Shown here: one piece after another, positions 1,387 to 22,400 of the stretch | Layout: each line of letters opens with the position of its first letter | How positions within the stretch are numbered: the first letter of the stretch is position 1 | Notes under the pieces: generated by a model | The model's database searches: none | What the model saw: the letters and a program-made list of their open reading frames with translations, nothing else | Told to the model about the DNA's origin: nothing | Source of the DNA: Flavobacteriia bacterium | Lineage (GTDB): Bacteria > Bacteroidota > Bacteroidia > Flavobacteriales_D > Crocinitomicaceae | Assembly: GCA_016178305.1 (NCBI GenBank) | Contig: JACOTM010000112.1 | Span: 1-56,650 of the forward strand | Direction: 5' to 3' | DNA: 56,650 bases | Position numbers and translations under genes: made by a program

Positions 1387-1533
1387 AATCATCAATAAAC
1401 ACCCTTACCCCTTCTTTTTCATTATTAATTTACTGAAAATCTGTAAAGACAAAGCATGTTTTCTTAATAACCTCAGAGTTCGATTAATATTTTAGCCTGT
1501 GAAAAGAAACTAAATCAAGAAGACACAACAAAT

Positions 1534-1902
1534 TTATTTATTTGAATATTCCGTAAATGATAAATCAGTATAAAAAACAATAATTTTCTCAATTTTTTTC
1601 ATTGTTGAGTCCAGCGCAACCTCTTTATGTAACTTATTTTCAAAAGTAGAATCCATAGTATCATCAATCAAATTCAAGTTATCCGAATTAATTTCTTTAG
1701 AAACTTCTCCTGTAATTAACCAACCAGCATTAACACGTGGATACTTTTTCAAAGTTTTTTCTAAAAAATCTAAGCTTGGCTTATTTCTCCCATTCAAAAC
1801 ATGACTCACATTAGATCTCTGAACGCCAATTGAGTCAGCAAAATTAGAAGCTGAAATACGATGCATTTTCAACACCATTAACAATCTATTTTGAATCGAC
1901 AT
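1534..1902 (-). CDS. XRE-family helix-turn-helix regulator
   Basis: This 122-residue protein has an N-terminal Cro/CI-type helix-turn-helix at about residues 5-60, with the pattern A-S-N-F-A-D-S-I-G-V-Q-R-S-N-V-S-H-V-L-N-G-R. A short, poorly conserved tail follows. Such proteins are common single-domain repressors in Bacteroidota and are often autoregulated. Target genes cannot be read from the sequence; the upstream same-strand neighbour is a 65-residue unknown gene, with a terminator between them. The promoter region holds a TATATTTG box (minus strand, 1923-1930) and an inverted repeat TATTTACA/TGTAAATA (1937-1944 and 1973-1980) that could be its own operator, which is inference. Confidence 0.85.
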   Translation of the reverse strand: MSIQNRLLMVLKMHRISASNFADSIGVQRSNVSHVLNGRNKPSLDFLEKTLKKYPRVNAGWLITGEVSKEINSDNLNLIDDTMDSTFENKLHKEVALDSTMKKIEKIIVFYTDLSFTEYSNK

Positions 1903-20933: not shown

Positions 20934-21476
20934 TTAATAAATTCCTTTTTCTGGATATTTACCTTTGTATTGAGAAAGAATTGTTTTAATATCTGCAATA
21001 TCTTTTTCAACATCACCAGTTGGTGTAAATAAACGTTCAAAGCCGCCTATTTTTCTACTATAATCCATATAAGCAATGTAAATTGGCACATTGGCTTTTA
21101 TTGCAATATAATAGAATCCTTTTTTCCATTTAGGGTTGTATGAACGTGTTCCTTCAGGAGTAAAAACGAGATATAAATCTTTGTACTCGTCAAATAAATT
21201 TACAGCAATCTCTGTTAAATTATTTTTTTGTTTTCTATCTACAGGTAAGCCTCCCATTGCTTTTAACATCCATCCTAAAGGAGGGAAAAACAAATCCTTT
21301 TTTATCAAAAATTTAGCATTTACACCATATTTAGCAAATGCTATCCGACCAATAATAAAATCCCAATTAGAAGTATGAGGACCTACAACGACAACACATT
21401 TTTCAACACCTACAGGAACATGTTCGTCTATTTTCCAACCTGCTATTTTTAAAATCCAGAATAAGAACTTTTTCAT
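20934..21476 (-). CDS. PlsC-like 1-acylglycerol-3-phosphate acyltransferase
   Basis: The 180-residue membrane-associated enzyme carries the acyltransferase motif I as H-T-S-N-W-D (HxxxxD family form) near residue 40 and motif III as E-G-T-R-S near 110, with a basic/hydrophobic N-terminus. PlsC-family members acylate lysophosphatidic acid or other lipids. It is shorter than classical PlsC (about 240 residues), as in a Bacteroidota subfamily. The ATG at 21476 is chosen over the TTG at 21497. A TATTTTTG box ends 4 nt ahead of this ATG, implying a nearly leaderless mRNA. Confidence 0.88.
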   Translation of the reverse strand: MKKFLFWILKIAGWKIDEHVPVGVEKCVVVVGPHTSNWDFIIGRIAFAKYGVNAKFLIKKDLFFPPLGWMLKAMGGLPVDRKQKNNLTEIAVNLFDEYKDLYLVFTPEGTRSYNPKWKKGFYYIAIKANVPIYIAYMDYSRKIGGFERLFTPTGDVEKDIADIKTILSQYKGKYPEKGIY

Positions 21477-21480
21477 AATG

Positions 21481-21709: not shown

Positions 21710-21741
21710 TTTGCAAATAAAACTAAAACGTTTTACCTTTG
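21710..21741 (+). promoter_or_regulatory. Promoter of small-RNA candidate 1
   Basis: TTTG at 21710-21713 and TACCTTTG at 21734-21741, 20 nt apart, match both Bacteroidota sigma-factor elements. It is the best full promoter I found in the window. Confidence 0.7.
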
Positions 21742-21745
21742 TGAA

Positions 21746-21832
21746 ACAATTTCATAGTTGTAGTTAGGTTTTATAGTTTTAACAAGGTTTACAGAAAGAG
21801 AAACACATTTTCATGAATATGTTTCTCTTTTT
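21746..21832 (+). ncRNA. Small-RNA candidate 1 (about 87 nt), upstream copy of a tandem pair
   Basis: The unit begins 5 nt after a TACCTTTG promoter box with ACAATTTCATAGTTGTAGTT (21746-21765). The first 16 of these bases can fold into a small hairpin (ACAA with TTGT plus a T-G pair). It ends with a long stem (21795-21805 with 21820-21830) and a T-run, a standard intrinsic terminator. A second copy lies 184 nt downstream with the same first 20 bases and the same overall layout. There is no open reading frame with a credible start. It may belong to a described flavobacterial RNA class (Flavo-1 is one name I know), but I cannot verify a match. Confidence 0.7.
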
Positions 21833-21917
21833 GCATTGATAAACTAGCTTTTCAATGATGCTTTAACTATTTAACATTTTTTTCGAAAAAATATTTTTTT
21901 AATTCAAACTTGTGCTT

Positions 21918-21925
21918 TAAATTTG
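21918..21925 (+). promoter_or_regulatory. -7 box of small-RNA candidate 2
   Basis: TAAATTTG, followed after 4 nt by the conserved ACAATTTC start, the same spacing as in copy 1. The -33 position reads TTTT rather than TTTG. Confidence 0.6.
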
Positions 21926-21929
21926 TCTA

Positions 21930-22017
21930 ACAATTTCATAGTTGTAGTTTTAGGTTTAAATTTTAGCAAATTTGCATGAAGAGGAACAAGTATCAGTTTA
22001 GATTTGTTCCTCTTTTT
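21930..22017 (+). ncRNA. Small-RNA candidate 2 (about 88 nt), downstream copy of the tandem pair
   Basis: The first 20 bases (21930-21949) are identical to copy 1; after a 2-nt insertion both continue with AGGTTT. The middle diverges. The terminator stem (21979-21989 with 22004-22014) has a different sequence from copy 1 with the same length and position, so the structure is kept while bases change, which argues for an RNA product. It ends 98 nt upstream of the FtsB-like gene, with a separate promoter box for that gene in between. Confidence 0.7.
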
Positions 22018-22080
22018 GTTTTTAACAATTTGGTATTTATAACAAAAAGCAGCGAATCTTTTTTTAAGAAGCAATTGAAT

Positions 22081-22115: not shown

Positions 22116-22400
22116 ATGAAGAAGTATCTTGTTTATTTTAAAAATAAATTCATTTTAGCCTCTACAATTTTTGTAATTTATGCTTTATTTTTAGATGACA
22201 ATGATATCTTTTCAATGATTGGACATTCTCGTAAATTAAATCGAATTGAAGAATCTAAAGAAATGGTTTCTGAAAAACTAGGAAAAATTAGACACACACT
22301 GAAACAATTACACTATTCTGCTGCTTTGGAAACTTATGCCCGGGAAGAAAAATTTTTCAAAAAAGATGACGAGGATATTTTTGTGATTTCAAAAGAATAA
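22116..22400 (+). CDS. FtsB/DivIC-like septum formation initiator
   Basis: The 94-residue protein has one membrane helix near residues 13-27 and then an amphipathic, Glu/Lys/Leu-rich coiled coil from about 38 to 70. A conserved short R-E-E-x-x-F-x-K-x-x-E-D-I-F segment near the end is typical of FtsB-family proteins, which bridge FtsL and FtsQ in the divisome. The length fits. uvrA starts 28 nt downstream but has its own promoter box. Confidence 0.82.
   Translation: MKKYLVYFKNKFILASTIFVIYALFLDDNDIFSMIGHSRKLNRIEESKEMVSEKLGKIRHTLKQLHYSAALETYAREEKFFKKDDEDIFVISKE

Follow-up and report, generated by a model that had tools for sequence, protein, structure and literature searches.

The window, as the whole analysed stretch of 56,650 nucleotides is called below, comes from a Flavobacteriia bacterium of the family Crocinitomicaceae. 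It contains two adjacent small-RNA-like units on the plus strand, flanked by a divergent acyltransferase gene and a small open reading frame. The features of the locus are as follows.

20934-21479, minus strand: acyltransferase gene (PF01553, domain match), the divergent neighbour
21710-21713, plus strand: -33-like TTTG of copy 1, whose TTG begins 23 nt ahead of the start of the box
21734-21741, plus strand: -7 box TACCTTTG of copy 1, read from the sequence
21746-21833, plus strand: small RNA copy 1, ~88 nt (covariance model 89.5 bits; fold z -4.19)
21746-21761, plus strand: 5' hairpin of copy 1, stem ACAAUU/AGUUGU and loop UCAU (predicted fold)
21766-21791, plus strand: linker of copy 1, AGGTTTTATAGTTTTAACAAGGTTTA; between genera no other part is as well conserved (alignments)
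21792-21833, plus strand: terminator hairpin and U tract of copy 1 (fold; covarying pairs in relatives)
21918-21925, plus strand: -7 box TAAATTTG of copy 2, read from the sequence
21930-22018, plus strand: small RNA copy 2, ~89 nt (covariance model 70.6 bits; fold z -3.44)
21978-22018, plus strand: terminator hairpin and U tract of copy 2 (fold; perfect 11-nt arms at 21979-21989 and 22004-22014)
22116-22400, plus strand: neighbouring 94-aa open reading frame, weakly FtsB/DivIC-like (match under the Pfam cut-off)

The observation of two paired small-RNA-like units was confirmed. The 20-mer ACAATTTCATAGTTGTAGTT was found exactly at 21746-21765 and 21930-21949 (plus strand) and was absent elsewhere in the window with up to 3 mismatches allowed (shuffle expectation 0.02). 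This exact search bears out an earlier sequence-only reading of the DNA, which had described two units 184 nt apart with a common 20-nt start. Only 1 of 200 shuffles folded as well as copy 1, and the same proportion (1/200) was obtained for copy 2. A box upstream of each unit, also claimed in that reading, is present in both cases and ends 4 nt before the repeat. The further claim of a TTTG at the -33 position holds for copy 1 only, as copy 2 has no TTG at the spacing seen for the TTTG of copy 1. The terminator arms are AGAGAAACA/TGTTTCTCT in copy 1 and AGAGGAACAA/TTGTTCCTCT in copy 2; because these sequences differ and still pair in the predicted folds, the arms have changed with pairing kept, as had been proposed. 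The assertion that no coding frame covers either copy fails for copy 2, which lies within a mechanical 56-aa TTG-start frame on the minus strand (21904-22074); no further sign of a gene was found for this frame. The promoters and terminators of the units went unreported in a simple consensus scan, which looks for promoters of the sigma-70 type and for stems with short loops.

Relatives of the units were collected with a covariance model (R1) from which the promoter region was left out. R1 matched 172 of 240 Crocinitomicaceae genomes, representing 18 of 24 genera. A second model, R2, was built from 77 units and tried on 31 genomes of the family with no R1 match; 8 of the 31 gave matches (E up to 0.1), of which five were accepted by reading, bringing the total to 21 of 24 genera. 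The R2 matches in G012, G255 and G085, together with a second match in G019, were rejected by reading. Genera g2, g11 and one more yielded no accepted member in the R1 and R2 searches, and the large genome searches were run with strict filters by which weak matches are lost. The matching genomes carried 1-4 model matches each, possibly including some antisense ones. Carriers include Brumimicrobium oceani, B. aurantiacum, B. glaciale and B. mesophilum, Fluviicola chungangensis and Lishizhenia tianjinensis, all of them Crocinitomicaceae in the NCBI taxonomy. A contig scan returned at least 119 stretches, all 119 with a model match; scan records with names such as Glaciecola, Chryseobacterium or Polynucleobacter look mislabelled or mis-binned.

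Searches were also extended beyond the family. In a sample of the order, 92 of 299 genomes matched, 88 of them inside the family, and the four matches outside it (L105, L106, L126, L127), all in one other family of the order, were rejected as terminators directly after a gene. Four matches outside the family in a phylum sample of 345 genomes had E values of 0.001-0.006, about chance level, and were likewise set aside. With no member accepted outside the family, the RNA appears, as far as sequence searches go, to be found only in Crocinitomicaceae.

One of these four phylum-sample matches, a stretch from another part of the phylum (L291, ~1501-1594, minus strand), carries a TAnnTTTG box, a possible hairpin, GGGATTCGTAGTTTTAGC and a terminator, with GTAGTTTTAGC ahead of the latter. 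It was taken as a chance occurrence; among 11 other genomes of its genus only 2 gave strong DNA matches, both partial, and its family gave weak matches only.

The counts given below derive from two collections. In the first, 125 matches were reduced to 91 once 1 truncated at a contig end and 33 lying on the strand opposite a unit had been taken out, and to 87 by removing 4 false ones; in the second, 3 partial matches out of 120 were dropped. The 204 rows kept overlap, since the collections share genomes, and correspond to 142 distinct units. Individual counts use the units that contain the parts needed (140, 136, 129, 122 or 110).

Of the 140 distinct units whose upstream sequence is available, 136 kept the TAnnTTTG box, as compared with 3.9% of random 57-nt stretches that contain one. 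Three of the four boxless units have TTTA replacing TTTG, and one (L177) has neither. TTG was the commonest -33 element in the relatives, with a peak at 22 nt before the box start (67/136 units); the 23-nt spacing of copy 1 was observed in 11/136. The combination of TTG, ~19 nt and TAnnTTTG is what we take to be the Bacteroidota-type promoter. The covariance search that the sequence-only reading had suggested recovered homologues in which the arrangement of promoter, hairpin and terminator is conserved. The sequence evidence supports the claim, made in that reading, of a pair of paralogous small-RNA genes that each possess a promoter box and a terminator.

A different picture from the one proposed emerged for the 5' end, which had been described as a conserved single-stranded seed. 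A hairpin is predicted there instead, and its sequence is swapped between genera. Among 129 units, the predicted mean unpaired fraction of the 5' region was 0.35, and 98 of 110 distinct 5' regions equalled or surpassed 95% of their own shuffles in folding (mean z -3.3). The 5' sequence is constant inside the genus, and unrelated hairpins take its place in other genera; L027, of the same genus, is an exception with no predicted 5' hairpin. From the folds and the sequence turnover of this region it follows that the supposed seed is a hairpin, and the active part is likely to sit downstream of it.

The element that stays constant across genera is a linker of about GGGUUUUAUAGUUUUAGCA(A/U)GGUUUAGC, mostly unpaired in the predicted folds. 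Its 13-mer TATAGTTTTAGCA was exact in 122 of 142 distinct units, and the linker core was predicted to be 77% unpaired on average, with at least 70% unpaired in 107 of 129 units. The linker differs between the two copies in the window: that of copy 2 has diverged to AGGTTTAAATTTTAGCAAATTTGC with part of it lost, and in copy 1 the linker TTTAAC is predicted to pair with the GTTAGG just before it (probability ~0.9). Linker length shifts by one base between the copies and relatives.

Paired changes were counted in two alignments. In alignment A5, which was fitted to the structure, leans towards it and is the basis of the pair counts, 20 of 24 pairs had changed on both sides, including all seven of the 5' hairpin; none of 500 shuffles reached this number, and neither did any slid register. 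From alignment A3, which was not fitted, prediction gave only the terminator, 9 of whose 17 pairs had changed on both sides.

The genome of the window contains a third copy (G000:C95:39582-39672; L002:1501-1592), adjoined by an ABC-3-type permease gene before it and a short-chain dehydrogenase gene after it. Five other genomes of the genus have one sense unit each at the fetched ftsB locus. In a tree of 21 units from the genus, copy 1 grouped with these ftsB-locus copies with support of 90/85, which falls below the 95/80 mark, and copy 2 formed a long branch with no firm place; by identity, copy 2 is nearest to a copy beside an ABC-3 gene. A simple duplication as the origin of the pair, as had been suggested, is therefore unsupported by these placements, and judging from the sequences the pair is probably not one. 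G004 also has side-by-side units, as does G001, where the second one is weak, from which it follows that extra copies arose or persisted more than once in the genus.

In two other genomes of the genus, adjacent units at other loci lie at L129:2001-2093 and 2286-2378, and at L049:1320-1415 (weak, 45 bits) and 1501-1591.

Neighbouring genes vary between loci. The 94-aa frame at 22116-22400 directly precedes a uvrA-like gene, and the same small FtsB/DivIC-like gene comes after the unit in the five other genomes of the genus. Across the 142 units, of which 6 have the upstream side cut off, the nearest of the sought families upstream (within 700 nt, same strand) was ZIP in 38, MnmC-like in 32 and ABC-3 permease in 25, so that a metal importer (ZIP or ABC-3) was present within 700 nt upstream in 63/142. 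When the nearest open frame upstream was considered, ABC-3 accounted for 25 of 87 units and ZIP for 16 of 87. Within 700 nt downstream, a co-directional DUF5723 gene was found in 58/142 units and a convergent NUDIX gene in 38/142, with the NUDIX gene further away in 2 more. ZIP and ABC-3, two kinds of metal importer with no relationship to each other, occupy the same place beside the RNA and DUF5723. The neighbours hence give hints of a metal link, one that may go back to very few events.

Taken together, the units are probably a pair of paralogous genes for a small regulatory RNA restricted to Crocinitomicaceae, which would act in trans with the linker as its active part; we hold this explanation with moderate confidence. 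Each would be a transcription unit of its own, running from a Bacteroidota-type promoter to an intrinsic terminator and giving an RNA of three parts: a 5' hairpin, a mostly unpaired linker and a terminator hairpin. The sequences themselves show this anatomy, how well it is conserved, the paired changes of both stems and the variety of neighbouring genes. The 5' hairpin would be free to change in sequence as long as its shape is kept. The hairpins may stabilise the RNA and present the linker, which, nearly constant through the family, would be the active site. Action in trans would most likely consist of brief stretches of pairing close to the starts of several mRNAs. A protein of the RRM type perhaps assists this pairing, in a genome with no Hfq match, in the manner reported for the Bacteroides pair FopS and RbpB. 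A role in metal uptake, to which the neighbours point, is the weaker part of this proposal.

Complementarity was searched for from several sides. Against 629 start regions, taken from 40 stretches of the genome and the window, the consensus linker showed complementarity equal to that of shuffled linkers, with no enrichment. A mild lean to starts was observed when start regions were compared with gene interiors (0.48 vs 0.78, s.d. 0.18, for the consensus linker; 0.15 vs 0.58, s.d. 0.24, for the copy-1 linker). The best single complementary site was equalled by 14 of 160 shuffles, and perfect complements of at least 10 nt occurred in 2 start regions vs 7.1 for shuffled linkers. Two perfect 12-nt complements, in the start regions at L251:8508 (histidine-kinase-like) and L259:14772 (murD-like), both names coming from reading of the protein, were rejected because shuffled linkers reach the same length, with complements of at least 12 in 69 of 200 shuffles. 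The 36 DUF5723 starts gave a marginal result, with 10 of 300 shuffles as good, for a group chosen among 29 gene groups. Outside the RNA genes of 32 genomes, the 12-nt linker core had 29 perfect complements vs 56 for a control pattern, and zero in 15 of the 32. Since core complements are this few, long conserved pairing is unlikely compared with short seeds or the binding of a protein; these tests would overlook seeds of 6-9 nt.

Protein binding is the basis of a somewhat unlikely alternative, according to which the GUUUUA and UAG elements of the linker bind, for example, an RRM protein, and the RNA serves as a ligand or sponge, titrating the protein or being carried by it with no conserved mRNA seed. 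The uniformity of the linker core across genera (122/142 exact 13-mers) and the lack of an excess of complementary sites fit such a role, as does the protein inventory: no Hfq match was obtained in the genome of the window, and two RRM_1 proteins were found (L289, L290; G000:C72:16423-16632 and G000:C55:3462-3671), which from their sequences are possible RNA-binding partners. UAG occurs 4.6 times per unit vs 2.8 in shuffles (122 units), largely at homologous positions, but the counts are not independent between related units, and mRNA seeds of 6-9 nt would have gone unseen in the complementarity tests. A broader version, which we regard as improbable, would be a near-universal RNA of the Crocinitomicaceae with interchangeable hairpin scaffolds, whose almost invariant ~26-nt linker docks an RRM protein, and which sits next to non-homologous metal importers because it couples RNA regulation to metal supply.

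It is very unlikely that the units are merely 3'UTR elements, or bidirectional terminators of the upstream gene kept for ending two convergent genes. The upstream gene is usually close and co-directional, the NUDIX gene ends inside the terminator at some loci, and 33 model matches lay on the antisense strand, the terminator reading alike from both sides. Against this, 136/140 units have a promoter box of their own, conservation extends to the linker and the 5' hairpin, and at some loci, the window included, the upstream gene lies on the opposite strand. A cis-acting leader or attenuator, by which the terminator would control expression of the downstream gene, is most unlikely. Co-directional DUF5723 genes within 700 nt of 58/142 units would suit it, but in 38/142 the downstream gene is a convergent NUDIX gene, so this explanation does not fit those units, and other units have other neighbours. 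Moreover, two units stand in series ahead of one gene in the window, and on reading, promoter-like GTAnnTTAG strings precede many DUF5723 starts. That the units encode a small peptide and are not a non-coding RNA is extremely unlikely: short frames exist by chance, but linker length changes by one base between copies and relatives, the stems carry paired changes and no shared frame was seen on reading.

The small trans-acting RNA favoured here was compared with known systems. Rfam 15 gave 0 matches at the gathering threshold in the window and 13 relatives' loci; around the units, a search at E up to 10 returned 14 weak matches far below the thresholds (best E 0.054). Flavo-1, an RNA motif of flavobacteria that the sequence-only reading had named and to that extent similar, had no match at its gathering score in the same window and loci and was not among the 14. 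Literature searches returned no small-RNA work on Crocinitomicaceae, including Fluviicola and Brumimicrobium. RyhB-type and other metal-linked small RNAs resemble the present one in so far as its neighbours hint at metals.

Kindred small RNAs are described in other Bacteroidota. FopS and GibS of Bacteroides are multicopy small RNAs that have canonical promoters and occur in an organism with RRM proteins; FopS has 14 members in B. thetaiotaomicron and is reported to pair through its 5' end and to act with RbpB (PMC11697453). The present RNA shares the multiple copies, a predicted canonical promoter and a genome with RRM proteins, but its genomes show 1-4 model matches, possibly with antisense ones among them. 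Unlike FopS as described there, its 5' end is a hairpin and its constant part an inner linker; in place of a single-stranded 5' seed common to the paralogues, a hairpin whose sequence changes between genera is predicted. Rfp18 of Flavobacterium psychrophilum, reported to be widely conserved in its genus, is a conserved small RNA newly described outside Rfam predictions that reportedly pairs through its third stem-loop (PMC9723704). The likeness lies in being a conserved flavobacterial RNA with no Rfam prediction, and the present RNA differs in having two predicted hairpins. The RNA is judged to be a new family, undescribed in Rfam 15, of a known kind of molecule, the small RNA. An Rfam entry could be built on its alignments and model, and named carriers such as Fluviicola chungangensis and the Brumimicrobium species make it testable. 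An RNA that spans the family and carries a defined constant element would offer a direct handle on RNA regulation in Crocinitomicaceae.
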